The position numbers were made by a program, and so were the translations under genes. Shown here one piece after another: positions 5,485-21,455 of a stretch of 35,332 bases of DNA. Below the pieces are notes generated by a model. The model was given only the letters and a program-made list of their open reading frames with translations. It searched no databases and had not been told where the DNA came from. Source of the DNA: Acidiphilium sp. (lineage in GTDB: Bacteria > Pseudomonadota > Alphaproteobacteria > Acetobacterales > Acetobacteraceae); contig DAIDMG010000012.1 in NCBI GenBank assembly GCA_027449105.1, positions 1 to 35,332 of the forward strand, written 5' to 3'. Every line of letters begins with the position of its first letter. The stretch's first letter is position 1.

Positions 5485-5934
5485 ATGCCACTGATTCGTG
5501 TTAGCCTAGAGGACTTTGATGTCGCCACCGAGCTTTCGCGACTTCAGGTCAACGCGGGCGCGGTTGCAAGCTTTATCGGAATCGTCCGTGGCGACTCGCA
5601 TGGAAGGGCGCTTCGATCGATGACGCTTGAGCATTATCCGGCGATGACGGAACATGCACTTGCAGAGATCGCCGACCGAGCCATGCGGCGCTGGGATCTC
5701 ACGGATTGCACAATCATTCACCGAATAGGCCGACTTAAACCTGGTGCTCGCATCGTGCTTGCCGCCGCTGCCAGCGCACATCGCAAAGCCGCGCTGGAAG
5801 CAACAACGTTCCTTATCGACTGGCTCAAGACCGATGCGCCTTTCTGGAAACGCGAGGAGTTCTCGTCGGGCGAAAGCGTATGGGTCACCCGAAATGCGGG
5901 AGACGATGAAGCCCGAGCACGCTGGGCAGAATAG
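5485..5934 (+). CDS. moaE: Molybdopterin synthase catalytic subunit MoaE
   Basis: The 149-residue large subunit of molybdopterin synthase; it forms the active site that converts cPMP to molybdopterin with sulfur from MoaD. Family features: the early GAVASFIGIVRG segment, LEHYPAMTE, the IIHRIGRLKPG strand, AAASAHRKAALEA with the conserved His-Arg-Lys, and the C-terminal KTDAPFWKRE with the two lysines that contact substrate. The start follows moaD by six bases without a strong ribosome binding site, suggesting translational coupling. The plus-strand cluster ends here. A weak hairpin CTGTC-TGCG-GACAG (5990-6003) lies downstream. Confidence 0.96.
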   Translation: MPLIRVSLEDFDVATELSRLQVNAGAVASFIGIVRGDSHGRALRSMTLEHYPAMTEHALAEIADRAMRRWDLTDCTIIHRIGRLKPGARIVLAAAASAHRKAALEATTFLIDWLKTDAPFWKREEFSSGESVWVTRNAGDDEARARWAE

Positions 5935-6666
5935 CCTTTTCGGTTAACTTGCGGGCGGGTCAACTCTGTCGGCGTATTGCACCGTTCTCCTGTCTGCGGA
6001 CAGCAGAACGTAAGACTGTACATGGCATCTATGTCGAAGGCTCGAGTTGTTGGCCGATCGCAGAAGAAGTAATGTAGCCCGCGAAGTTCGAATGCTACCG
6101 GACGTGTCGTTTTGGCCATCGTGTATCATTCAAAATTGGTAAAGCCCAATTGATGATACCTGTGTGCAGATGAATGTCGACGGTGGGTGAAAATGCCGGA
6201 TCTCTATTGCTGTTCCCAGACGGAGAAGATCGTGCGCGCTACGTCGGATTGACCAAGAACGGTTTGGTATCGCGGAACCGTTGCGCGCAAGTTCCTTGAT
6301 CGATACTTTCCGACCTTATCAATTCGCGGCTGGTCACGGACCTGCACGAGCTGCTCTACCCGGCATTGAAGGCTAACCCCGCCTAGCGGCACTTCTAGCG
6401 ATGCCAAAGCGCCGCTGCTGGCAATGGGGCTCGACCTGTCCGATGTGAAACTCGCCCTAGCTTCCGATGACCCTGGTGAGGTCTTTGCCTATAACGCCAA
6501 TCACGGTGCCCACTTCCGCGAAGAGTGGCAGGTCACGGATGGCAGGCTCCTAGGTGATCCTGACAGGTTTGTGCGGCCGCGAAAAGCAAGAGACACGCGC
6601 GTCTCGATACCTGAAACCAGCCGATCCATCGCACCGGCAGCCGGATCGAAAAAGTCTTCGGAACGT
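5935..6666. other. Gene-poor stretch between moaE and the IS5-type element
   Basis: I find no intact gene. It contains an imperfect hairpin at 6123-6159 with arms GTATCAT...AATTGG and CCAATT...ATGATAC. A plus-strand frame at 6424-6702 begins MGLDLSDVKLALASDD, but it runs into the inverted repeat of the next element and has no family I recognise. The stretch is probably degraded DNA between an ancient breakpoint and the mobile element. Confidence 0.45.
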
Positions 6667-6683
6667 AGCAGGCTGCTGAAAAA
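6667..6683 (+). repeat. Left terminal inverted repeat
   Basis: AGCAGGCTGCTGAAAAA is the exact reverse complement of 8895-8911. It precedes the IS5-type transposase start by about 60 bases, the position expected of an insertion sequence terminus. Confidence 0.85.
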
Positions 6684-6743
6684 ACCCTCTCGTCATTTTT
6701 AGCGAAGCGTGATTCTGTTGTTCTGAAGCGGAGGGAGGCTGGC

Positions 6744-7587
6744 ATGCGTGGTCGGGATCAGCGGTGCGGAGAATTGTTTTCTTATGTGGATATCGAGGCT
6801 CGTATTCGAGCGGGCCATCCGCTTCGGACGATCAAAGTGCTGGTCGGAGAAGCGCTGAGCGGCGATTTCGAGGCATTATATGCCGATACGGTGGGACGGT
6901 CGTCGATCCCACCGGAACGTCTGCTCCGAGCGATGCTGTTGCAGGCATTCTCATCGAGGCATGGGCGGGGATGAAGAGTTTTCAACTCAGGGACAGTGAC
7001 CGGCAAAGCGCAGGCGGCGGTGCTTCCGAGGACTTCCGCGGGGAGAGAAGACTGAACGCCACACATGTCTCGACGACCGATCCCGAGACCCGCCTCTACC
7101 GAAAAGGCAAAGGCAAGCCTGCGCAGCTTTGCTACATGGGACACGTCCTGATGGAGAGCCGAAACGGTCTCGCGGTCGGCACCCATTTGACGCAGGCGAA
7201 CGGAACCGCCGAACGCGAAGCTGCCCTCACCATGGTTCATGAAGCGGCACTGGGCGCGGGGGCCACGCTGGGGGCCGACAAGAGGCGTACAATGCCTGGC
7301 GCTTCAGGCAAGCGCTCAGAGACCGGAATGTCGTTCCCCACATGGCGCTACGTTCCGACACCGGCTGGGGCGGCGCAAGGATCATCCCGCCATCGAGGTA
7401 CGAGGCCTCGCAGCGCCACCGTAAGCGGATCGAGGAGATCTTCGGGATGGGTGAAGACGGTGGCAGGTCAGGCCCAAGACGAAGTTCCGAGGGCTCGGGC
7501 GGGGTTGCCCACGGTTTCGATCTCGGGGTCGCCGCTTAAAATCTGATTCGCTTGCCCAAGCTCCTTAGTGCCAGCGACCTGCCATGA
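6744..7587 (+). pseudogene. IS5-family transposase, deleted and frameshifted
   Basis: The start MRGRDQRCGELFSYVDIEARI and the segment SSIPPERLLRAMLLQAFSS match the N-terminus of IS5-type (DUF772-containing) transposases. Another frame resumes with the DDE-domain piece DFRGERRLNATHVSTTDPE, then RLYRKGKGKPAQLCYMGHVL and LGADK, and further frame changes lead to the usual C-terminal RKRIEE-FGMGEDGG and NLIRLPKLL segments. The central part carrying the first catalytic Asp is deleted at about 6965-7020. The order of pieces is right but the reading frame changes at least three times. Non-functional. Confidence 0.85.
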
Positions 7588-7812
7588 TGGCGCCGACATG
7601 ATCGGGCGCTGGCGGATCACTCAGGCCGACCTCTGGGATCAAAACTACCTGGATCTTTGCGGGCCAACCACTCTCCTCATCGCTGCCGACGGACATGGCG
7701 AGATCGGCTTCGGTGCGCTGCAGGCGGGATTAATTCTCGAAGGCTATCTGCAAAATCTGGTTGGCTCCAACCTGAAGATGCAGGGAACGGGGGCCCGCCA
7801 AGCGTTGTTAGC

Positions 7813-8323
7813 CTACCTCAGCGAGGCGGCGATGTCGGCGATCGACCGGAACAGCACCAGCGTGTTGTCCTGGGACGGCAGGAACCCACGGCGGCGCCAG
7901 AACACGGCTGCCTCGTCATCGACAGCGTTCACGACCAAGACCCGCCCTCCGATCAGCGCGGCGCCGCTGACACTGCGGGCGAGCGCGTGGTTGAACAGCC
8001 CGGTGCCGATCCCCCTTCCGACCCACGCCTGATCGGTGGCAAGTTGGCCGAGCAGAATGCACAGCGCCGGGTTCGGCGGCTGGCCGGTGCGGACCGAGCG
8101 AGGCAGGGTGGCGGGGACGATCGATGGCCGTCGGCGCCAAGCCGTAATAGCCGACGACACGGCCTGCCACGTGGACGACCATGACCACTGTGAACCCCTT
8201 CTGCTGATTGGCGAGCGCCCGGGTCTTCAGCCATTGATCGAGCGAAGGCTTGCCGCAGGAGAACCGGGATACGTCGTGGCCGGCATTCAGCAGCTCGGGG
8301 GCGGCGAGCGGTGGCTCCGCCAT
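7813..8323 (-). pseudogene. TacT-like GNAT acetyltransferase toxin, frameshifted
   Basis: Toxins of this type acetylate charged aminoacyl-tRNA and are held in check by a DUF1778 partner. The N-terminal frame reads MAEPPLAAPELLNAGHDVSRF, then CGKPSLDQWLK, ANQQKGFTVV and GYYGLAPTAI. The rest, in another frame, reads VPATLPRS, ILLGQLATDQAWVGRGIGTG (acetyl-CoA-binding Q/RxxGxG/A) and VNAVDDEAAVFWRRRGF, the usual GNAT C-terminus. The two frames join at CGATCGAT (8118-8125), where an extra four bases (tandem ATCG) break the gene. The start ATG overlaps the antitoxin stop (TGATG at 8325-8321), the normal arrangement for this pair. Confidence 0.85.
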
Positions 8324-8562
8324 CAGCGCTTTGCTGCACCATTCTCCCAAGGTGCCTTACGGTGGAGGCACGCCACCATTTCCGGGACGGGCGTGGCGGG
8401 GGCGGAGACGGCTTGGACGAACGCCGCGAAGCCCTCGGGTGTCATGCGCAGCAGCGTGTTTTCCATCAGGACCTCCTCGGCGGCCCGGTCGATCATGGCG
8501 ATGTCGCCTTCCGGGAGACGCATCGAGAGCGGATAGTCTTTGCGTTTGGCCGTGCCGGTCAT
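8323..8562 (-). CDS. TacA-like DUF1778 antitoxin with an internal deletion
   Basis: The frame starts MTGTAKRKDYPLSMRLPEGD after an AAGGGGG ribosome binding site, which is why I chose 8562 over upstream starts. It has the ribbon-helix-helix beta strand and first helix (IAMIDRA), then jumps straight to AEEVLMENTLLRMTPEGF and the toxin-binding tail ending HRKAPWE. In the family, the second helix (an SRTDFV-type segment of about 18-20 residues) belongs between these parts and is absent. The reading frame is kept, giving only 79 residues against about 95-100. The DNA-binding dimer is probably destroyed, while the neutralising tail may persist. It is translationally coupled to the toxin relic. Confidence 0.8.
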   Translation of the reverse strand: MTGTAKRKDYPLSMRLPEGDIAMIDRAAEEVLMENTLLRMTPEGFAAFVQAVSAPATPVPEMVACLHRKAPWENGAAKR

Positions 8563-8734
8563 TGTGGCCCCCTTCGCCATGGGGCGAAAGTAGGATGCCA
8601 TAGTAGCGCTTTTTGCAATACGCGACGCGCTGCTGCCTGATATCTTTCGCGTGAGTGTCGTTCGGCGTGGGGTCGAATCGCCGATCGGTATCATAGGTTG
8701 AGCCCAATCACTTTTTGCAATTAGGCTTCTTGAA

Positions 8735-8893
8735 TTTGCCCAAACATCGGTATTTTGCGGATGGGAGGGTTTCGACGAGATAGGCGAGCTGCGGGGATCC
8801 GGATCTGCCACGATTCAGGACGATCAAGGCCTCGAGATCGACTTCAACTTCCACAGCGGCGACGAAGCCATACTCAAAGCCATCAAAATCTGA
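8735..8893 (+). pseudogene. C-terminal tail of a small acidic protein
   Basis: An open tail reads WEGFDEIGELRGSGSA, then DDQGLEIDFNFHSGDEAILK, and ends at TGA 8891-8893, two bases before the right inverted repeat. I recall small hypothetical proteins near mobile elements with a similar WxGFDEM...GDEA pattern, but I cannot name the family. The upstream part is cut by an in-frame stop at 8732, so only a remnant survives. Confidence 0.35.
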
Positions 8894-8894
8894 A

Positions 8895-8911
8895 TTTTTC
8901 AGCAGCCTGCT
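8895..8911 (-). repeat. Right terminal inverted repeat
   Basis: TTTTTCAGCAGCCTGCT is the exact reverse complement of 6667-6683 and marks the right end of the IS5-type unit. Confidence 0.85.
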
Positions 8912-9222
8912 CTCTCACGTCCGCATTCAAGGACTCGGTCACGATTATTCCTTGCGCATCAACGGATGACCGGTAGGGACTGTGAAAGTGCGTAAGGCAG
9001 GAGACAGGACCTGAAGACACCGGTTGAACAAGCTCTCATGGGCGGGTTGGCTACCGCATGACCGTGGTTCCGTCGTGGGGCTGCCTCATGCTAGAGGCGA
9101 ATGTCGGTCCGGGGACCGGCTCATAACAGCTCAGGAGGATTCTCCGACCGTGGTCCTGCCTCCAGCCTTGCGCACCAGATTTATTCGCTGGATATTTTCC
9201 TCCGTCTCCTTCAGCAGTTCTC
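8912..9222 (-). other. Non-coding 3' end of the IS110-type element
   Basis: About 310 bases follow the transposase stop on the minus strand before the IS5-type repeat is reached. No gene is supported. IS110/IS1111 elements keep long non-coding ends, one of which encodes the bridge RNA that pairs with target and donor DNA. A relic of such an RNA could lie here or in 10344-10984. I did not identify its loops. Confidence 0.4.
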
Positions 9223-10343
9223 TCAAGTGAAATGGAGTTGAGCAATGCGGGCGATCGCCGAGATGAAGCCGACCATTTCGTGAGCAACGGCCGTGGTGAC
9301 CGCAACCTTCGGCTTCCCGGAAGCGGTCAGACGGCGATATCGTGCGCACAGTCGAACCTGCGCGTTCCAAGCAATATCTCAGCTGACAGCGGCTCAAGAC
9401 GGTCGTAGATCTTTCGGCTTACGCGTGCTGACGTCCGGTATGTCCAGGCCCCCTCAATCAGCACACGCCGGGCCAGCACATTGCCGGCTTTGGTAATGCC
9501 GCCGCGGCGGACGCTGCCACCTGACGAGTGCTCGCTCGGCACCAGGCCGAGATAGGCCATCAGTTGGCGCGGATTTATGAAGCGGCGAAAATCACCGACT
9601 TCCGCCATAACGGTCACCGCTGCCACGAGGGCAACCCCGCGCATCGCCTGCAGCGCAGCCACAACCGGTGCCATCGGCCAGTTCGGCAGGAAGTCCTCGA
9701 TCTGGCCTGTCAGCCGGTCGCGCCGGGTTTCCGCGTCCTGCACGGCATAGATGTAATCCTGCAGGACGATTTGCTGCGCCGGATGCTCGAACCGCAATGT
9801 CGTCAGCCAGCACCGATAGGCCAAGGTTCAGGCGCGAGGCCTGTGATAAACCCGCTCATGGCGCAGCAAAAATCCTTGCAGATGCTGCAGCGCCTTGGCC
9901 AGTACGCGGACCGCAGTCGTGGCGCGCCCGCGCCAAGTCGTGCATTGCCTCGTGTGCCTGATCTGGAACCCAAAAAGGCAGTCAATTCGCCGGCCCGATG
10001 TAGCTTCCCAAGCATCATCGCATCGCGGCGATCCGTCTTTAGCCGGTCGCCCGTCTTGATCGGGATCAACGATGGCGCAACCACCACGCACTCGTGCCCG
10101 GCAACCAGTCAGCAGTCGTTGCAAACCATAGCCACAAGGACCTGCTTCGTAACAAAAGCAGAGCCGGCGGCCATTCTTGCCAAGCCGTGTTGCCATTTTA
10201 CTCAAAACATCCGGCCGGTTCTCAAACACACCGACCTGCCGAACCTCGCCGTTACGGCTGCTCTCAGCCGCTGCCACGCATACCGTCGCCTTATGCACCT
10301 CAATCCAACAAACGTGATATTGTCCGTCAGGTCTGCCCTCCAT
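9223..10343 (-). pseudogene. IS110-family transposase, multiply disrupted
   Basis: IS110 recombinases combine a DEDD RuvC-like domain with a C-terminal Tnp_20 domain. The N-terminal frame reads IEVHKATVCVAAAES, then NRPDVLSKMATRL and CYEAGPCGYGLQRLL. The second frame holds [22 protein letters not shown] and [10 protein letters not shown]. The first frame returns with [19 protein letters not shown] and is cut by TGA (9830-9828) where a tryptophan is expected. The last large piece contains MRGVALVAAVTVMAEVGDF, GLVPSEHSSGG and RRGGITKAGNVLARRVLIEG. A final frameshift near 9370 leads to the true end at 9223. The first catalytic Asp (GLDVHK in the family) is Glu here (WIEVHK). At least four lesions make it non-functional. 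Confidence 0.88.
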
Positions 10344-10984
10344 GCATGAGGCTCTGTACCGGCCATCCGGCACAACCCTCGATATCGTACATGATGAGGG
10401 CGGGCCGCCGATCACTCAGCGGATATTGGGTCTAGAGTTGTGGCCGATGGGTCCGCATTCATGCCTGATACCACTGGATTTGTTCGGGATGTGGCGCTAC
10501 AGGTCTTTAGGGTGGTGTTGCGACAATTCGGTTGCCTGGCGAAGTCAATCACTGGGCCGGTACGACGTACGAGAGAGAGGTAATTGCGGTAAGTTTTGGA
10601 TTGCCGCTGAGGTGGATTCATCTAAAGCCACTTCAATTTTTCCGGTTTCCTGTCCCGAGTCGTTTTTTTTATTGGGGCGGTCATGCGGGGCCGTAAAGCA
10701 GTGTCCGGTAAGACCGGACTGTGGGGTAGTCGTCACAGCCATCCATGATTGCTTCGGCGTCTTTTTGGCGGTCTTTGAAATGCAGACACCCTCATTATTG
10801 CAACAACCATAGGCTTTTCCACGGGGATGGCACGAAATGCCTGCCAGGGTTTGTTCGCTGCGCGTCGATCAATGCGTCTACTCGTCTTCAGCTGATCAAG
10901 GGGTGGGCGGTTCGCCACGACTTTGTGGATTGTACGGTATTCGATTACAATAATAGCCATTGATTCCACTGAGGAGAGTCCGCC
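10344..10984. other. Non-coding stretch upstream of the aminotransferase cassette
   Basis: No gene is supported. It should contain the 5' end of the IS110 relic and the promoter of the cassette, but I see no convincing -35/-10 pair. The clearest structure is the palindrome at 10703-10719. Short frames on either strand show no family resemblance. Confidence 0.4.
10703..10719. repeat. Perfect short palindrome upstream of the cassette
   Basis: GTCCGGT-AAG-ACCGGAC: seven-base arms around three bases, 266 bases upstream of the aminotransferase ATG. There is no T tract on either side, so it is not an obvious terminator. It could be an operator or the end of a lost IS3-like element, since similar GTCCGG...CCGGAC ends occur in that group. 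Confidence 0.5.
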
Positions 10985-12310
10985 ATGAGCGATGTCGCAT
11001 CACGTTCGAACGCGCCGTTGTTCCACCACTGGATGCCTTTTACCGCCAATCGGCAGTTTCAGGAGTCGCCACGTATCATTGCGCGCGCGGACGGCATCCA
11101 CTACTGGAATACAAAGGGCGAGCGTTTGCTTGATGGTATCTCGGGCCTCTACACCACTCCAGCAGGGCATGGTCGAAAAGAAATTCGCGACGCGGTGGCG
11201 CGCCAAGTAGAAGAACTCGACTACGCGCCGGCGTTCCAATTCGGTGTGCCGGGGTCGTTTCGATTGGCACATGAGCTTGCGGAAATGCTGCCCGAAAGCT
11301 TGAACCGGGTGTTCTTTGCGGGGTCTGGATCGGAGGCAGTTGAAACAGCCCTTAAAATCGCAATTCAATACCATCGTGTTCGCGGGCAAGGTCAGCGCCA
11401 ACGCTTTGTTGGGCGAGCGCGAGCCTACCATGGCGTTAATTTTGCGGGCTGGTCAGTTGGCGGAATGGTAAAAAACCGTGAAGCATTTGGTTTGGGTCTG
11501 CCTGGAGTCTCGCACCTGCGCCATACGCTGGTTCCCGAAAACAAATTCGTCATGGGCCAAGGCGAGCACTGTGGCATTGATCTTGCGGATGATTTGCAAC
11601 GTGTCATTGATTTGCATGGGGCAGACACGATCGCAGCATGCATCGTTGAACCAATTGCTGGCTCAACCGGAGTTCTCGTGCCGCCGAAGGGCTATCTCGA
11701 ACGTTTGCGTACGATTTGCGACCGACATGGCATTCTGTTGATCTTCGATGAGGTAATTTGTGGCTTCGGTCGCACAGGGCATCCATTTGCTGCCAATGCA
11801 TTCGGGGTAACGCCTGATCTTTTAACCATGGCTAAGGCGATAACGAACGGCAATATTCCGATGGCGGCAGTAGCAATACGCGAAGACGTGCAAAAAGCCA
11901 TCTTTGATGTCGCTGAGGCAGATACAATCGAGTTTTTTCATGGATACACGTACTCTGCTCATCCAGTCGCATGCGCGGCTGCACTTGCAACGTTAAAGAT
12001 GTACCGGGACCATGACATGTTCGCGCGTGGTGCAGCGTTGGCGCCGTCTTTTCTTGAGCGTATCGCGTCCATGAGGGACATGCCGGTCGTGATCGACACG
12101 CGCGGGTTTGGCCTGCTTGGTGCTGTTGATCTTGCGCCGGGTGAGAAGCCAGGCATTCGGGGCTTTATGGCTTTGCAGCGTTGTTTTGAACAAGGACTAG
12201 TTTTGCGAGTCACGGGAGACACCATCATCTTTGCTCCGATGTTTATTACTCAAATTGATGACCTTGATCGCATGTTTGAGCTTCTCCGCTCTGTGCTGAA
12301 GACGGTCTAA
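10985..12310 (+). CDS. Class III aminotransferase, omega-amino acid--pyruvate type
   Basis: A PLP-dependent enzyme that moves an amino group from an omega-amino acid or amine to pyruvate (or another keto acid), leaving a semialdehyde. Visible features over 441 residues: HWMPFTANRQF near the start as in beta-alanine--pyruvate transaminases, the PLP-phosphate loop GSGSEA at 113-118, FDEVICGFGRTG with the pyridine-binding Asp255, and the Schiff-base lysine K284 in TMAKAITNG. The family segment GLWCVNAGHGR reads GLYTTPAGHGR here, a changed active-site loop that may mean a different substrate. The start follows GAGGAG. The aldehyde dehydrogenase begins 14 bases downstream. Beta-alanine, taurine, 3-aminoisobutyrate or a polyamine product are possible substrates; sequence alone does not decide. 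Confidence 0.88.
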   Translation: MSDVASRSNAPLFHHWMPFTANRQFQESPRIIARADGIHYWNTKGERLLDGISGLYTTPAGHGRKEIRDAVARQVEELDYAPAFQFGVPGSFRLAHELAEMLPESLNRVFFAGSGSEAVETALKIAIQYHRVRGQGQRQRFVGRARAYHGVNFAGWSVGGMVKNREAFGLGLPGVSHLRHTLVPENKFVMGQGEHCGIDLADDLQRVIDLHGADTIAACIVEPIAGSTGVLVPPKGYLERLRTICDRHGILLIFDEVICGFGRTGHPFAANAFGVTPDLLTMAKAITNGNIPMAAVAIREDVQKAIFDVAEADTIEFFHGYTYSAHPVACAAALATLKMYRDHDMFARGAALAPSFLERIASMRDMPVVIDTRGFGLLGAVDLAPGEKPGIRGFMALQRCFEQGLVLRVTGDTIIFAPMFITQIDDLDRMFELLRSVLKTV

Positions 12311-12324
12311 AAAAGGATAACGAG

Positions 12325-13758
12325 ATGTACAGGGATGTCCTGCTATATATAGGCGGGAAATGGGTCAGTGCATCGGGCGGAAAAAGCATTCCGGTCACCA
12401 ATCCAGCAACCGAAGAGATTATTGGCAGTTGCGCCAGCGCAGAAACTGCCGATATTGACGCTGCTGTCGCTGCGGCAGAAAGTGGCTTTGCTGTATGGCG
12501 AAACTTTTCGCCGCAAAAACGTGCCAAGATCATGCGCAGAGCTGCAGAACTGCTGCGCGAACGTGTTGAAGCGATTGCGCGGGCAATGACAATGGAAGAA
12601 GGCAAGGTGCTTGCCGAATCCCGGGCCGAGACGCTGGTAGCAGCCGACGTAATCGAATGGTTTGCCGAGGAGGCGCCGCGCACGTATGGGCGCGTGATTC
12701 CCGCGCGTGCTATGGAGGTATACCAGCTGGTTATCAAAGAGCCAGTCGGCATCGTCGCGGCGTTTACTCCGTGGAATTTTCCGATCAATCAGGCAGTACG
12801 AAAAGTAGCAGCGGCTCTTGCTGCAGGCTGCTCCGTGATACTGAAAGGGCCTGAGGAGGCGCCGGGTTCCTGCGCGGAGATGGTTCGCTGCTTTGCAGAT
12901 GCAGATGCGCCCCCCGGTGCCGTTAACTTACTGTTCGGCGTTCCAGCACGAATCTCCGAGCACCTAATCTCCCACAGGCTGATACGCAAAATCTCGTTCA
13001 CAGGTTCGACTGCTGTAGGAAAGCATTTAGCTTCTCTGGCGGGGCTTCATATGAAGCGGGTCACGATGGAACTTGGTGGTCACGCACCAGCGATCGTATT
13101 TGAGGATGCTGACGTCGATGCCGCCACTCGCATTTTGGCGGCGAACAAGTTTCGGAATGCCGGTCAGGTTTGTGTTGCACCAACGCGGTTTTTAATCCAT
13201 GAGAACGTGTATGAGGAATTCATGGAGAGATTTCTTTCTTTCGTAGCTAACATTAGGATAGGTGACGGACTTGTTGCGGGAACCACGATGGGACCTCTCG
13301 CGAACGAACGGCGCATAGCCGCCGTTGAAGGTTTCGTTTCTGATGCAGTGGAGCATGGAGCGCATATCGCGGCGGGCGGTCAGAGAATAGGCAATAAAGG
13401 TTATTTTTTCCAGCCAACGCTTCTAACAGATGTTCCGCCAGATGCCAAGGTAATGAATGAGGAGCCGTTCGGACCGATCGCTTTGGTCAATCGATTCACA
13501 ACATTTGGTGAAGCAGTTAAAGAGGCAAACCGACTCAACTACGGCCTTGCTTCATACGCATATACGCGTTCCACAAAGACTGCCACGGCAATCGGGAGAG
13601 CGATCGAAAGTGGTATGGTCTCGATTAACCATCACGGCCTCGCTCTTCCAGAAACCCCATTTGGCGGAGTCAAGGACAGTGGCTACGGTTGGGAGGGCGG
13701 AGCTGAGGCGATTGATGCCTACCTTAATACAAAGTTTATAACACAGGCGTCTGGTTAA
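12325..13758 (+). CDS. NAD(P)-dependent aldehyde dehydrogenase, succinate-semialdehyde type
   Basis: Oxidises an aldehyde to the acid, probably the semialdehyde made by the preceding aminotransferase. The 477-residue protein has the full ALDH superfamily set: PWNFP with the oxyanion Asn151, the cofactor lysine K174, FTGSTAVGK, the general base Glu249 in MELGGHAP and nucleophile Cys283 in NAGQVCVAPTRF. The usual KPAEDTP of GabD reads KGPEEAP, so it is a related subgroup and not classical GabD. The start has a good AAGGATAACGAG ribosome binding site. The SDR gene follows by two bases. The exact substrate is not known; succinate or malonate semialdehyde are reasonable guesses. Confidence 0.9.
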   Translation: MYRDVLLYIGGKWVSASGGKSIPVTNPATEEIIGSCASAETADIDAAVAAAESGFAVWRNFSPQKRAKIMRRAAELLRERVEAIARAMTMEEGKVLAESRAETLVAADVIEWFAEEAPRTYGRVIPARAMEVYQLVIKEPVGIVAAFTPWNFPINQAVRKVAAALAAGCSVILKGPEEAPGSCAEMVRCFADADAPPGAVNLLFGVPARISEHLISHRLIRKISFTGSTAVGKHLASLAGLHMKRVTMELGGHAPAIVFEDADVDAATRILAANKFRNAGQVCVAPTRFLIHENVYEEFMERFLSFVANIRIGDGLVAGTTMGPLANERRIAAVEGFVSDAVEHGAHIAAGGQRIGNKGYFFQPTLLTDVPPDAKVMNEEPFGPIALVNRFTTFGEAVKEANRLNYGLASYAYTRSTKTATAIGRAIESGMVSINHHGLALPETPFGGVKDSGYGWEGGAEAIDAYLNTKFITQASG

Positions 13759-13760
13759 AA

Positions 13761-14492
13761 ATGAGCACAGAGGAGTTAGCTGGCAAATCTGCCATTGTTA
13801 CTGGTGGCAGCAGTGGTATTGGCCGCGGCGTTGCGACTGCTTTTGCGGCTGCTGGAGCTAATGTGCTTATTTGCGGGAGGGATAGAGAGAGGCTGGAATC
13901 GGTATGTCAGAACATTGGGCGTAATGTTAGTTACGTTGTGGCCGACATCACCCTTGAGCGTGATGTTGATCGCCTCTTTACGGAAGCGGAAAGGATATTT
14001 TCCGGTCGGCTAGATATTCTGGTCAATAACGCAGGTCGTTCGACCACAGCCAGAACGGAGGATCTGTCTGTGCAGGACTTCGAAGCCGCAATTGCGCTCA
14101 ACGTTACGAGCGCGTTTCGATGCGCGCTGCGGGCGTTTCGTATCATGAAGGCGCAAGGAAGTGGGCGGATCATCAATATTGGGTCAGTTTCGTCGCGGGT
14201 GCCCCGCGGCAATTCCGTGCCTTACACTACGTCAAAGTTTGCCCTTGATGGCATGACGCGGGCACTCGCCCTCGATGGTCGATCACGTGGAATCGCGGTG
14301 TCCGTTCTGCATCCCGGCAACACCGAAAGCGGGATCTGGTCCGATCAAGATACAATACGAGTGGCGGAGGGGCTGATGCCTGCAGATCAGGTCGCGCGAG
14401 CGGCGCTCCTAATGGCATCGCTGCCGGCCGATATCAATATGCTCGAAGCCACGATGCTACCGCTCAAAATGCCCTTTCTGGGGCGAGGTTGA
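13761..14492 (+). CDS. Short-chain dehydrogenase/reductase
   Basis: A classical SDR of 243 residues. The cofactor motif TGGSSGIG is at 14-21, NNAG at 89-92, and the catalytic Ser142, Tyr155 and Lys159 (YTTSK) are present, so it should be active. An acidic residue is not obvious after the second strand (ICGRDR), which may favour NADP(H), though this is weak evidence. It begins two bases after the aldehyde dehydrogenase stop, so it is co-translated with it. It may reduce a semialdehyde to a hydroxy acid, the alternative fate to oxidation, or act on a separate hydroxy substrate. Confidence 0.88.
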   Translation: MSTEELAGKSAIVTGGSSGIGRGVATAFAAAGANVLICGRDRERLESVCQNIGRNVSYVVADITLERDVDRLFTEAERIFSGRLDILVNNAGRSTTARTEDLSVQDFEAAIALNVTSAFRCALRAFRIMKAQGSGRIINIGSVSSRVPRGNSVPYTTSKFALDGMTRALALDGRSRGIAVSVLHPGNTESGIWSDQDTIRVAEGLMPADQVARAALLMASLPADINMLEATMLPLKMPFLGRG

Positions 14493-15168
14493 CCGAGTTA
14501 GGTTGCGGGTCGCTAGCGCATTAGCAAGAAAATGCATCAGATCGGTCCCATGACCCGCCCCTCATAAAACAGGAAAGTGTGAGCCCGCGCGCATGTGATG
14601 CGCGTGGTTGTTGCATGACAGGGCGACCGCGTGTTTCGGACGAAGATACTGCGTGTTGAGCAAGTGACTTGTCGGGCTGACAGTTGTGCAGGGCACATGC
14701 AAACTTTGGAGGAACGTCACACTGGGCGCAACGGGATACTTATTAGGCGAAGAGTAGCAGCGTCGAGCGGTGCTTCATGTCGTTCTCGGGACGCCATGAT
14801 CGCTTGGTCTGAGGCCTCGAGGCCACTTCGTAAATGATTGAAGTGCGGGACGTGGTTCGGCCGGAGAAGGTTCATCTGAAATGGTTCCTGTTCTACCTGA
14901 TGGAGCGACAGCGCATGGGAATTGCGACTCCAGGAGGCTGGCAAAACCAACAACAACAGAAGCGCTCGTGCCCAAAAATCTTTCCGCTCTCTCCGTTCGT
15001 ATGTTTTGGCGTAACTAGGGGTTTTGCTCAGGTGCTGATGTCACAACGACAGCTTTTACCGTAACATCCCGGCAGTCGGGGGCAATATATCGGCGGACCA
15101 AAGTTGATCTGGATCATGGTTCCGTCACGTAGGGGATGGTATCGATCCTCGTGCTGATGGAGGGATAT
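14493..15168. other. Gene-free stretch between the cassette and the CBS gene
   Basis: I see no supportable gene. A hairpin CGCGCA-TGTGA-TGCGCG (14588-14604) followed by TGGTTGTTGC might end the cassette transcript but lacks a proper T tract. The last 30 bases hold the GGAGGGAT ribosome binding site of the CBS-BON gene. Confidence 0.4.
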
Positions 15169-15879
15169 ATGAAGACCTTAACTACCAGAGAAATCATGAC
15201 GGCGACACCGGTGACCGTTGAACCCGAGACATTGTTGGCTGACGCTGCGCGAATCATGCTGGATCAGCACATCACGGCGCTCCCTGTCGTGGCTCCAGGA
15301 GGGGCGTTGGAGGGCATTCTAACAGACGGCGACCTTCTTAGGCGGTTTGAACTGGGAACTAATAAGAAGATATCGGCGTTAAAAGGGTTTTTTGCCCCGG
15401 AGCAGAGCGCACGCGACTTTGTTCGCTCACATGGGCGGCGGGTTGCCGAGGTAATGACAATTGAGCCGGAGAGCGTTTCATCGGGCACGAGCCTTGATGA
15501 GGTCGTTGACATTATGCAGAAGCGGCATTTCAAGCAGTTGCTTGTTGTCGATGATGGAATTCTGGTCGGCGTGGTTGGGCGGCGTAATCTCTTGGCCGCA
15601 TTAGTCGGTGATCTGATTGCTGTCGATGACGAGTTAGTATCGGACGAATCGGCCGAAGCTAGGATCTTGGCACAGTTTGCCGAGTCAAAATTTGCGCCTC
15701 GAAACGCGGTGGCTGTGCGCGTCAAAAACGGCATCGCGGAACTGGAGGGAACGGTCTTTAGCGATGCCGAACATGATGCGCTGATTGTCATCGCGGAAAA
15801 CACAAAGGGAATAAAGGGGGTGCGTGATCGCATGGAGATTGCTGACCCGAACTCGGGACTGGCTTTTGGAGGGTATTGA
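15169..15879 (+). CDS. Tandem CBS domain protein with C-terminal BON domain
   Basis: A 236-residue soluble protein. Residues 1-60 form the first CBS domain (TREIMTATPVTVEPE, then LPVV and GILTDGDLLRRF). About 88-150 form the second (VAEVMTIEPESVSSG, then LLVVDDGILVGVVGRRNLL). About 160-228 form a BON domain (NAVAVRVKNGIAELEGTV, then GIKGVRDRMEI). CBS pairs bind adenosine nucleotides and sense energy state; BON domains bind lipid or membrane proteins. CBS-BON proteins are common in alphaproteobacteria and not well understood. The ATG at 15169, after GGAGGGAT, is preferred over the upstream 15136 start. Its stop directly abuts the stop of the convergent ABC-F gene. Confidence 0.85.
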   Translation: MKTLTTREIMTATPVTVEPETLLADAARIMLDQHITALPVVAPGGALEGILTDGDLLRRFELGTNKKISALKGFFAPEQSARDFVRSHGRRVAEVMTIEPESVSSGTSLDEVVDIMQKRHFKQLLVVDDGILVGVVGRRNLLAALVGDLIAVDDELVSDESAEARILAQFAESKFAPRNAVAVRVKNGIAELEGTVFSDAEHDALIVIAENTKGIKGVRDRMEIADPNSGLAFGGY

Positions 15880-17727
15880 CTAGGTTTCAGCTAGTGCGTT
15901 TTCTGCTGCTATCCAGCATTCCATCGCGTTTTCAGTTTCCACCGAAATTGCCGCAAGACGTCTGTGAAGTCGCGCCATCTCGTGTGGATGCGCGCGCGTG
16001 TAGAAATCCGGCTCAGAAAGACGCTGTTCTATAGCGGCGCGTTCAGCGTCTAGGTCAGCAACTTTTTGCTCTGCAACTTTTAGATGGCGGCGCAGCGGGA
16101 GGGTTTCGGAGGTTCGTTTCACCTTATGTCCGCGCGATTTTGCCGGGACACTTTGCTTTGGTTCTACATTTTGAAGGACCAATTTCTGGTAGGCGGTGAG
16201 GTCATCGTCATAGGATGCAACCTTTCCGTCTGCGACCAGTAGCAGGCGATCGACGAGCACATCGATTAGGTGCGGATCGTGGGTGATTAGAATTATGGCG
16301 CCGGAGAAATCTGTAAGCGCGCGGATGATGGCTTCGCGTGCATCGATGTCAAGATGATTTGTGGGTTCATCAAGGATAAGGATGTGCGGGGCGTCGCATG
16401 TTGCCAAAGCTAAGAGAAGGCGCGCTTTCTCGCCTCCGGACAGCTGGCGAGTACCAATCTCGATACGATCTGGACCTAAGCCAAAGTTAGCGCCATGTGC
16501 GCGGATTTGAGTCGCCGTTGCGAGCGGTAGGGCGTGCGCGAGATGATCGAATGCTGTGGCGTTGAGGTCGAGATCATCCTCCTGATGCTGCGCGAAATAG
16601 CCGATCCGTAAACCGCCTGTAACAAAAATGCTTCCCGATTGTGGTAAAAGCCGGCTCGAAAGGGCTTTGGCGAGAGTTGATTTACCGTTTCCATTGGCAC
16701 CTAACAGGGCAATGCGGTCGCCCGTGTCCACGCGAAGCGAAATGCCGCGCAATACTGTTTTAGAGTTATATCCTAGGCTGACATCGTCAAGTGATAACAA
16801 TGGCGGAGGAAGGTACTCGGGTTCGGGGAAACAAAACCGTGTTGGTGAATCCTCCACAAGATTTTCGATTGCCGGCAAGCGAGCGATTGCTTTGAGCCGG
16901 GATTGCGCCTGACGAGCTTTGGTTGCTGTAGCGCGAAAGCGATCGACGAATTTTTGAATATGGGCACGTTGTGCAGCGACGCGTGCAGCATTTCGTTTCT
17001 GCTGTTCAGCACGCTCAGTCCGGATGCGGATGAAATCAGTGAATCCGCCTGGAGTGACATCGATTTTGCCTTGATTTAGACGAGCAATGGAGTCGACCGC
17101 GCGATCAAGGAGGTTCCGGTCATGAGAGACCATCAGCACAGCACCCCGAAAGCGGGTAAGCCAAGTTTCCAACCAGACCGCGGCCTCAAGGTCAAGGTGA
17201 TTGGTGGGTTCGTCAAGAAGAAGCAGGTCGGGAGCGGCAAACAGGGCAGAGGCCAAGCCAACACGCATGCGCCAGCCACCTGAAAAGCTCGACATGGGAC
17301 GTATTTGAGCCTCGCTGTTGAAGCCAAGGCCGCTCAGAATGGCGCTGGCACGGGATGGGGCAGAGTCTGCCTGGATGGTAATCAAGCGATCATGAATATC
17401 CCCCAAGCGCTCTGGAGCGGCGTATTCTGCCTCTGCGAGGAGCTGCGTCCGCTCTATATCAGCGCCTAGGACATGTTCCAACGCTGACGCTGCACCACTT
17501 GGCGCTTCCTGCGCCACGCTGCCTAAGCGGGCTCGGTGGCCCAACCGGATTGTGCCACCATCCGGTGTCAGTCCTCCATCTATGAGCCTGAGTAAAGTCG
17601 ATTTGCCAGCGCCGTTTTTACCGATCAGGCCAATCTTCTGGCCGATACCGATAGCCAACGTTGCGTGATCAAGAAGGGCACGCCCAGCGTAGCTGAACGA
17701 CAGGTCGTCAATTTGGAGCAAGGTCAT
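15880..17727 (-). CDS. ABC-F family ATPase (YheS/Uup-like)
   Basis: A soluble protein with two ABC ATPase modules and no membrane segments, 615 residues from the ATG at 17727. Module 1: Walker A GKNGAGKST at 36-44, signature FSGGWRMR, Walker B LLLLDEPTNHLD. Module 2: GANGNGKST, signature LSGGEKAR, Walker B ILILDEPTNHLD. Between them is the charged linker (interaction motif) of ABC-F proteins (RNAARVAAQRAHIQKF onward). The last 90 residues form a basic, coiled-coil-like C-terminal domain. Members bind the ribosomal E site and relieve stalled translation, and some give antibiotic resistance. The length and C-terminal domain favour the YheS group. It is divergent from ndk, with a shared 204-base promoter gap. 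I chose the internal ATG because the 25-residue extension upstream does not resemble the family. Confidence 0.93.
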   Translation of the reverse strand: MTLLQIDDLSFSYAGRALLDHATLAIGIGQKIGLIGKNGAGKSTLLRLIDGGLTPDGGTIRLGHRARLGSVAQEAPSGAASALEHVLGADIERTQLLAEAEYAAPERLGDIHDRLITIQADSAPSRASAILSGLGFNSEAQIRPMSSFSGGWRMRVGLASALFAAPDLLLLDEPTNHLDLEAAVWLETWLTRFRGAVLMVSHDRNLLDRAVDSIARLNQGKIDVTPGGFTDFIRIRTERAEQQKRNAARVAAQRAHIQKFVDRFRATATKARQAQSRLKAIARLPAIENLVEDSPTRFCFPEPEYLPPPLLSLDDVSLGYNSKTVLRGISLRVDTGDRIALLGANGNGKSTLAKALSSRLLPQSGSIFVTGGLRIGYFAQHQEDDLDLNATAFDHLAHALPLATATQIRAHGANFGLGPDRIEIGTRQLSGGEKARLLLALATCDAPHILILDEPTNHLDIDAREAIIRALTDFSGAIILITHDPHLIDVLVDRLLLVADGKVASYDDDLTAYQKLVLQNVEPKQSVPAKSRGHKVKRTSETLPLRRHLKVAEQKVADLDAERAAIEQRLSEPDFYTRAHPHEMARLHRRLAAISVETENAMECWIAAENALAET

Positions 17728-17931
17728 GGTGGCTTGGTATCTTATGGACGCCCACCTGCCCAGCCGGGTAAGGATCAGGCTACATACGCGGCCGGTGCCC
17801 ACAGGCTTGGGATTGACCGAAGCACCGATGAAAACTCACCGACGGTCTACGACATGGCGGTACTTTATGTGGTTGCGCTCGTTTGCCGTTGAGGCTATGT
17901 CGCGCGCGACACAATCTAATGGGATGACGTG

Positions 17932-18354
17932 ATGGCCATCGAACGAACGCTTTCGATCATTAAACCGGATGCGACAAGACGGAACCTCACCGGTCGCATC
18001 AACGCCAAGCTCGAAGCGGAGGGGCTGCGAATCGTGGCGCAAAAGCGGCTGCTTCTGACGAAGAAACAGGCAGAGGCGTTTTATGCGGCACACCGGGAAC
18101 GACCATTTTTCGTTGGTTTGGTGGCGTTCATGACGTCGGCCCCGGTCGTTGCACAGGTGCTAGAGGGAGATAACGCGGTCGCCAAAAATCGCGAGATAAT
18201 GGGAGCTACCGACCCCACAAAGGCAGCGCCGGGAACCATTCGGGCGGAGTTCGCAGAGAATATTGAAGCGAATTCGGTGCATGGCTCGGACTCGTCAGAG
18301 GCTGCGGTACAGGAAATTTCCTTCTTTTTTGCCGGTATAGAAATTACCGGCTGA
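17932..18354 (+). CDS. ndk: Nucleoside diphosphate kinase
   Basis: Transfers the gamma phosphate from ATP to NDPs and dNDPs by a phosphohistidine intermediate. At 140 residues it is exactly the usual length. It starts [15 protein letters not shown], and the active His117 lies in NSVHGSDS. The P-loop-like Kpn region ([17 protein letters not shown]) is intact. The ATG at 17932 is preceded by an in-frame GTG at 17929; the ATG matches the family. It is the only plus-strand gene between 15.9 and 30.5 kb. Confidence 0.98.
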
Positions 18355-18604
18355 ATCGCTATGTGCGGCAGCACGTGAGTACAACACTGCGTCGGCTGAC
18401 GCCGGTCGGTCGTTTGGATCTGGAGTCTATAACGGAATAACTTGCGGCCATGTCGCGTTCCGGCCTTTTTCGACGGCAAGGCTACGCGGGTTGGTTACGC
18501 TCACTACCATGTCGTGCCTCGGTTCACATTGGCATGCACTGCATGACCTCGTGCGATAAGCAAGCTGGTCCAATCGAACCGATCGAACCGCTCAAGGCAT
18601 CAAC

Positions 18605-20476: not shown

Positions 20477-21387
20477 TAGAAATATCCTTCCCGCTTCTTT
20501 TTTTCCATTGCAGCGGTATCGTCATGGTCAATCAGGCGCCCCTGACGCTCGGATAGCCGTGACTTGGCCATTTCCGAAATGATAGCCTCTAGTGTCGAGG
20601 CCGTAGACTCGATTGCCGCCGTGAGAGGGTAGCAGCCGAGGGTACGGAAGCGTACCGAGCGAAGTTGGGGTGTTTCGTTATGCAGTAGGCGAAAGCGGTC
20701 ATCGTCGACCATCAAAAGCTGCCCGTTCCGTTCAACAACCGGGCGAAGCCTGGCGAAATACAAGGGTACGACGTTGATTTTCTCGCGTGCGATGTAGGAC
20801 CAGATATCGCCTTCGGTCCAGTTTGATAGCGGAAATACTCGCATTGTTTGACCGGGACCGAGCGCCGGATTGAATAGATTCCAAAGTTCGGGGCGCTGAG
20901 CCTTTGGATCCCAGCCGTGCCGCGCATTACGGATCGAGAAGATTCGTTCCTTTGCACGAGACTTTTCTTCGTCGCGGCGTGCGCCACCGAAGGCTGCATC
21001 AAAGCCAAATTCGTCAAGGGCAGATTTCAGAGCTTCCGTCTTCATGACTTGGGTGTAGACGGATGCGGCATGGTCAAAGGGATTCATGCCGTTGGCGGCG
21101 GCTTCAGCATTGGTGCGGACGATAAGATCTAGGCCCAGTTGTTTGACTGTTGTATCGCGATGCAAAATCATTTCGCTAAACTTCCAGCCCGTATCGATGT
21201 GCAATAGCGGAAAGGGAGGCTTTGCCGGATAGAAAGCTTTACGAGCAAGATGAAGCATCACGGAACTATCTTTGCCGATCGAATAGAGCATGACGGGTTT
21301 ACGAAAGCCAGCCGCTGCTTCGCGGATGATCTCAATGCTTTCCGCTTCGAGTACATCGAGGTCAGAAGCGTGTTCGGTAAGGTACAT
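20476..21387 (-). CDS. cysD: Sulfate adenylyltransferase subunit 2
   Basis: The catalytic subunit that adenylates sulfate. At 303 residues it has the ATP-pyrophosphatase (PP-loop) motif SIGKDS at 36-41, the [16 protein letters not shown] segment and the C-terminal [25 protein letters not shown] typical of CysD. The frame is open to 21426, but the ATG at 21387, with AAGGAT upstream, gives the family N-terminus ([16 protein letters not shown]). Only 37 bases separate this ATG from the degP terminator, so either the operon promoter overlaps the hairpin or the hairpin is in its leader. Confidence 0.97.
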
Positions 21388-21424
21388 GCAATGATCCTTA
21401 TAGCGGCCTAGGGACTCTGGAAAC

Positions 21425-21455
21425 AAAAAAACCTCCGGCCCGCAAGGGCCGGAGG
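21425..21455 (-). terminator. Intrinsic terminator after degP
   Basis: On the minus strand the stem CCTCCGGCCC / GGGCCGGAGG (10 perfect pairs, four-base loop) is followed at once by TTTTTTTG. This is a textbook rho-independent terminator. It lies 87 bases past the degP stop and 37 bases before the cysD ATG. Confidence 0.92.

Follow-up and report, generated by a model that had tools for sequence, protein, structure and literature searches.

Three rightwards-transcribed genes lie close together on contig DAIDMG010000012.1 of Acidiphilium sp. (assembly GCA_027449105.1), within a 35,332-nucleotide stretch (positions 1 to 35,332) referred to here as the window, and form the cassette described below. 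The first (10985–12310) codes for a class-III omega-aminotransferase of a branch found in taurine-type contexts, the second (12325–13758) for an aldehyde dehydrogenase whose nearest solved relative is AbKGSADH (5x5t), and the third (13761–14492) for a classical short-chain dehydrogenase/reductase (SDR). The assignments draw on the open reading frame (ORF) list and on profile matches (PF00202, 285.6 bits; PF00171, 527.2 bits; and PF00106, 176.1 bits, respectively), together with the loop and tree for the aminotransferase, matches to structural relatives for the dehydrogenase, and motifs for the SDR. All three ORFs are open throughout, and a Shine-Dalgarno-like sequence, GAGGAGAG, read from the DNA, stands ahead of the first ATG (10971–10978, + strand). 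Because the intergenic gaps are 14 bp (aminotransferase/dehydrogenase) and 2 bp (dehydrogenase/SDR), the three genes are likely to form one operon. An initial annotation of this DNA had described such a tightly spaced trio without an attached transporter or regulator, and both points hold: between a broken IS110 remnant upstream and a CBS-BON gene starting at 15136 there is no other rightwards ORF of at least 90 amino acids except one of 156 amino acids (10342–10812), itself unscanned, so that neither a transporter nor a regulator is apparent.

The aminotransferase has GLYTTPAGHGR at residues 54–64, in place of the GLWCVNAGHGR that the initial annotation took as usual, and was thought to have an altered active-site loop. 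The difference is genuine, GLW being usual in the Trp-type relatives (19 of 20 controls, the remaining one unread by the motif pattern), while the suggestion of an unusual enzyme falls away, as the loop is a signature of a whole enzyme branch and no private change. It is identical in all twelve congeners and in genome G035. Phe or Tyr replaces the Trp in every one of 80 loci (L024–L103), the 80 top-ranking among 587 confirmed matches to the window aminotransferase; some of the L-numbered loci come from the same genomes as our G-numbered set (e.g. L024/G008 and L031/G035). Six rows, four Acidocella loci together with L035 and L037, have GLYCIPLGHGR. No characterised homologue with the same loop was found, the characterised Tpa sequences lying outside the comparison.

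Phylogeny and genome neighbourhoods had been proposed as checks on the cassette, and the aminotransferase tree and the surroundings of its relatives bear on its placement. In a tree of 94 rows, an 88-row branch (support 100/100) includes the window protein and excludes the Trp-type rows L019–L023 and the P. aeruginosa enzyme 4b98, the latter being a long row (1.39) whose own placement is unsure; C. crescentus AptA is absent from the tree. The window clade of 20 rows (100/100) is nested in this branch, with a separating branch length of 0.35. The window protein passes the cut-off of the NCBIfam AptA model NF052567 (613 bits, cut-off 500; 588–628 for the other rows of the 88-row branch and 772 for a Trp-type row) and falls apart from the Trp-type AptA rows in the tree. 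Among solved structures it comes closest to beta-alanine:pyruvate transaminases (450 bits, versus 318 for a polyamine:pyruvate transaminase), and 213 of 428 aligned residues are identical to 4b98. Lys284 (the pyridoxal phosphate lysine), Asp255, the flipping Arg408, Phe19, Phe84, Tyr148 and Asn164 are kept relative to 4b98, and Trp61, Ile166 and Lys171 are changed to Tyr56, Met161 and Glu166; the 4b98 residues other than Trp61 are those named in an excerpt of PMC4907197. As a class-III aminotransferase with the pyridoxal phosphate lysine and the flipping arginine, the protein has features expected of a taurine:pyruvate aminotransferase (Tpa).

The neighbourhoods of the branch relatives are of a taurine type. 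Within 4.5 kb of the aminotransferase, ORF clusters at the 66 loci outside the window clade (L038–L103) include MocR-type regulator genes (20 loci), alanine dehydrogenase (ald; 17), sulfoacetaldehyde acetyltransferase (xsc; 16), a gene that we label molybdopterin-oxidoreductase-like (5) and Pta (3), and 40 of the 66 have at least one gene of the taurine-type set. This ORF-cluster count covers the test loci only, and the comparison with controls is a tblastn count made with other thresholds over whole loci, in which taurine-type neighbours are present at 52 of the 66 loci (xsc or ald at 33) and at none of the 20 Trp-type controls; a single control has mmsA. The controls are 20 of 27 genomes with a 47–55% match, seven being left aside, five for lying no more than 1.4 kb from the beginning of a contig and two because of a limit of 20 stretches; their flanks are about 4.5 kb, versus up to 6 kb (many cut) at the test loci, and some neighbour queries were drawn from the test group. 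Representatives match NCBIfam models for xsc (TIGR03457, 950 bits), alanine dehydrogenase (TIGR00518, 508 bits) and a Pta-type protein (341 bits). The set resembles the TauR regulons described in an excerpt of PMC5320631, some of which include GabD-family dehydrogenases.

The dehydrogenase matches AbKGSADH at 567 bits, and the AbKGSADH pocket residues, which hold acid semialdehydes according to part of PMC5385487, are all kept when mapped by hand on the alignment (Asn155, Gln156, Arg159, Glu249, Arg277 and Cys283); a short aldehyde with an acid group would therefore fit the enzyme. It scores below the cut-off of the SSADH model TIGR01780 (477.3 versus 646 bits). The motif KGPEEAP, singled out by the initial annotation as a departure from KPAEDTP, does start at residue 174. 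It is a lineage feature of the cassette dehydrogenases and no private oddity, since all the cassette dehydrogenases that were compared have KGPEE[TA]P: the window subclade has KGPEEAP and the remainder KGPEETP, against KAPEETP in AbKGSADH. The SDR contains the motifs TGGSSGIG and YTTSK, and no entry named IsfD is present among the 60 of its 620 matches that were listed.

Cassette composition varies among the 13 genus genomes (the window genome, G000, and congeners G001–G012), of which G000, G002, G009 and G012 are less than 90% complete, making absences there weak; G000 is a 2.77 Mb draft of 388 contigs, 88.4% complete. The aminotransferase is present in all twelve congeners at 78–97% identity (75% in G035), and a dehydrogenase orthologue in nine of the twelve at 74–95%, the best matches in G003, G011 and G012 (the last 83% complete) reaching only 40–41%. 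Dehydrogenase and SDR both adjoin the aminotransferase in G000, G001, G002, G008, G009 and G010; the dehydrogenase alone in G004–G007, L035 and L037; the SDR alone in G035 (L031) and in four Acidocella loci (L032, L033, L034 and L036); and neither in G003, G011 and G012. An old three-gene cassette with several losses is the simplest history. At L115 of G035 (5913–10762), four genes read as a branched-chain-amino-acid-type ABC transporter precede the aminotransferase and SDR, and that genome has no xsc above cut-off.

The presence of the SDR follows that of xsc. Six of the 13 genus genomes (G000, G001, G002, G008, G009 and G010) have xsc above cut-off, and in exactly these the SDR adjoins the aminotransferase; the remaining seven genus genomes and 14 named controls all lack xsc above cut-off. 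The same pairing was predicted in advance for seven more genomes and held in six, with xsc present as predicted in L032, L033, L034 and L036 and absent as predicted in L035 and L037. Counted together, 10 of 11 genomes in which the SDR adjoins the aminotransferase have xsc, against none of nine in which it does not (one-sided p 6e-5, treating genomes as independent). The xsc check covered 20 handles, seven of them the prediction genomes and eleven of them hand-chosen loci between L038 and L096, some of which (e.g. L064) were already known to have xsc nearby; ten of the eleven chosen loci and G036 have xsc, and L096 is without it.

In the window genome, xsc lies elsewhere than the cassette (L180, 5914–7662; 916 bits), so the description of the cassette as an orphan is true locally and fails genome-wide. 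The xsc of G001 adjoins an SsuA-family ABC transporter (168.5 bits, cut-off 163.5) and a gene read as MocR-type. G010 has another aminotransferase that belongs to the same branch as that of the window and is 57% identical to it (L173, 3064–7165), beside ABC transporter genes resembling those at the G001 xsc locus. In Acidocella (L197, 2851–13424), xsc is accompanied by a Pta-like gene, SauS (782 bits, cut-off 600), a coenzyme A ligase pair below cut-offs, a GMC-type dehydrogenase and an MFS-type transporter, which suggests use of isethionate and sulfoacetate.

The cassette is inherited within the Acidocellaceae, and its parts are common to Acidiphilium, Acidocella and two other lineages. The remnant directly upstream, which led the initial annotation to suppose that the cassette may have been acquired, is indeed a broken IS110 family transposase in two frames (9327–10415, − strand); the piece at 9327–9824 matches NF033542 below its cut-off (122.5 versus 140 bits) and also PF02371, and no model matched the piece at 9828–10415 at the thresholds used. 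Import from outside with IS110 is rejected by the presence of the aminotransferase in 12 of 12 congeners and of cassette parts in Acidocella and two other lineages. A gene of cluster F3, which we take to be pyrD, lies upstream of the cassette in all ten congeners outside the window subclade (G000, G002 and G008); this subclade has other genes upstream, and the cassette is followed by the CBS-BON gene and by genes that are presumably ABC-F-like and ndk-like. The flanks were thus rearranged once in the window subclade; the cassette may have been relocated inside the genome, and IS110 may have taken part in this. DNA of the sister genome G008 matches the window from 10621 rightwards, and with only 146 bp available further upstream this comparison is weak on IS110.

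Base composition shows no break at the cassette (GC content 0.51–0.57 there). Beside the IS110 remnant, GC content at 7001–10000 is 0.61–0.64, versus about 0.51–0.59 elsewhere in the window. No RNA family was found at 8500–18500 at the gathering threshold. A promoter scan was at chance (3 found versus 2.8 expected), and of ten terminator-like sites (5.4 in shuffles) eight are inside cassette genes; neither was used as evidence. About 6 kb past the cassette, a leftwards-transcribed gene (20479–21426) codes for a protein with a PAPS-reductase domain (PF01507, 186 bits) and probably serves sulfate activation.

Our favoured explanation, in which we have moderate confidence, is that the three genes make up an old operon of the Acidocellaceae serving a small acidic omega-amine; its products would be a taurine:pyruvate aminotransferase that also uses beta-alanine, together with a dehydrogenase and a reductase for sulfoacetaldehyde or malonate semialdehyde. 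From taurine, and probably beta-alanine, and pyruvate the aminotransferase would form alanine together with sulfoacetaldehyde (or, from beta-alanine, malonate semialdehyde). The dehydrogenase would oxidise sulfoacetaldehyde to sulfoacetate (or malonate semialdehyde to malonate), and the SDR would interconvert sulfoacetaldehyde and isethionate (or malonate semialdehyde and 3-hydroxypropionate), its direction being predicted like the substrates of all three enzymes. Where Xsc is present, as in the window genome, it would cleave sulfoacetaldehyde to sulfite and acetyl phosphate. A role of isethionate as waste appears less fitting, because the SDR would then be most useful without xsc, yet it is absent together with xsc; feeding of isethionate to Xsc, or an overflow valve, would fit this pattern better. 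Among the candidate substrates named at the outset (beta-alanine, taurine, 4-aminobutyrate and polyamine-derived amines), taurine and beta-alanine appear best supported.

Several observations weigh against this proposal. The activity of the cassette enzymes is a prediction, and the AptA assignment can be set beside an excerpt of PMC3281772 in which the C. crescentus omega-aminotransferase prefers beta-alanine and beta-aminobutyrate. Neither ald, xsc nor tauR lies beside the window cassette, and a tblastn count of 28 (redundant) window-clade loci gave only one taurine-type neighbour, a MocR match; the MocR-like representative of the wider branch itself has PdxR (358 bits) as its best NCBIfam match and not TauR. 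The window-genome xsc is of a divergent subtype that recurs in G002, G008 and G010, with 47% identity to the G001 type, and lies beside genes read as nucleotide-sugar genes, away from sulfonate genes. Seven of the 13 Acidiphilium genomes keep the aminotransferase without xsc, and G035 (L031), with the SDR and no xsc, is the exception to the advance prediction and speaks against a strict SDR–xsc rule. At the level of lineages (nine, counted from the tree) the association is weak (p 0.04), and SDR absence was judged only beside the aminotransferase. The dehydrogenase is far below the NCBIfam cut-off for SafD (271.8 versus 700 bits).

Breakdown of beta-alanine or another beta-amino acid alone, with the dehydrogenase forming malonate and the SDR 3-hydroxypropionate from malonate semialdehyde and no role for taurine, would agree with the beta-alanine:pyruvate transaminases being the best solved relatives, including the likeness to 4b98. 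It would also agree with the presence of mmsA near the aminotransferase at seven of the 66 loci outside the window clade and above cut-off in nine of the 13 Acidiphilium genomes, in some beside an amaB-type gene, with no such aminotransferase in the fetched stretches. We consider it unlikely, as taurine-type neighbours are far commoner than mmsA in the branch, the subclade of G000, G002 and G008 lacks mmsA above cut-off yet keeps the cassette, and the SDR tracks xsc and not mmsA; no link between the dehydrogenase and mmsA was seen across the genomes. Three of the seven mmsA loci also carry xsc or ald, which fits the double use of taurine and beta-alanine in the favoured explanation. The SDR–xsc co-occurrence likewise counts against a different amine (a polyamine, 4-aminobutyrate or an aromatic amine) whose aldehyde the partners would oxidise or reduce, as do the lower score of the polyamine:pyruvate transaminase and the retention of the acid-binding pocket in the dehydrogenase. 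Such a substrate is quite improbable in our judgement, even with the promiscuity of the enzyme class described in part of PMC4907197, the long branch setting the window clade apart, and the G035 transporter genes (124 bits, cut-off 477) ahead of the aminotransferase and SDR in its favour.

The aminotransferase might instead be biosynthetic, making the beta-alanine of pantothenate from malonate semialdehyde in a family without panD. Indeed, panD is absent from all 13 genus genomes and all 80 family genomes searched, while panC and the aminotransferase are each present in 13 of 13 genus genomes, and both enzymes of the uracil route are above cut-off in only four (G003, G005, G006 and G011), with TIGR01879 above cut-off in eight of 13 and TIGR02033 in five. 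According to an excerpt of PMC7142369, A. cryptum JF-5 has neither ADC nor PYD2, and a single PYD3 and a single AAM; the same source describes R. etli, which has no panD, as needing amaB, its transaminase mutants growing normally. Other points against a biosynthetic role are that a source of malonate semialdehyde would be required and several genomes are incomplete, that the surroundings of the aminotransferase showed no pan gene (panC was unmatched in the 80 loci L024–L103), and that a PF00282 decarboxylase, above cut-off in all 13 genus genomes, is a possible alternative source. We regard this role as very doubtful, and equally improbable the more particular form in which the family would obtain beta-alanine for coenzyme A, bypassing aspartate decarboxylase and uracil breakdown, through malonate semialdehyde formed by the SDR from 3-hydroxypropionate. 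Among the PF00282 decarboxylases (L159, L160, L162 and L165), the G000 and G011 proteins stay below the cut-off of every NCBIfam model, and one in G001 is a glutamate decarboxylase.

The results matter in several respects. A branch labelled AptA by NCBIfam sits in taurine-type contexts, and its Phe/Tyr-for-Trp loop change tells it from the Trp-type enzymes. The xsc genes of six of 13 Acidiphilium genomes and the xsc–Pta–SauS locus of Acidocella point to C2-sulfonate metabolism in the acidophilic Acidocellaceae, and the dehydrogenase and SDR are offered as sulfoacetaldehyde candidates outside the SafD family. With panC retained and panD missing, where these bacteria obtain their beta-alanine becomes a question open to testing.

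The cassette shares features with four known systems and differs from each. Like the Tpa systems with Ald and Xsc in TauR regulons, same-branch relatives adjoin MocR-type, ald and xsc genes, and the window genome carries xsc; unlike them, the cassette has no adjoining ald, xsc or MocR gene and has the dehydrogenase and SDR in their place (a comparison drawn from gene context, outside the characterised Tpa sequences). With AptA (NF052567) and the solved enzymes 4b98, 3a8u and 4uhm the aminotransferase shares its fold class, a score above the AptA cut-off and the key residues, and is distinguished by its Tyr, Glu and Met replacements of Trp61, Lys171 and Ile166 and by its separate branch. The IsfD taurine-nitrogen pathway, as presented in an excerpt of PMC6616044, relies on a taurine:oxoglutarate aminotransferase together with TauABC and an exporter, IsfD being an NADPH-dependent SDR that acts as sulfoacetaldehyde reductase; the cassette similarly combines an aminotransferase with an SDR that could act on sulfoacetaldehyde, a likeness of enzyme class from which no kinship is inferred. 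Finally, the cassette dehydrogenase keeps the pocket of AbKGSADH and differs from it by KGPEEAP in place of KAPEETP and by its aminotransferase partner.

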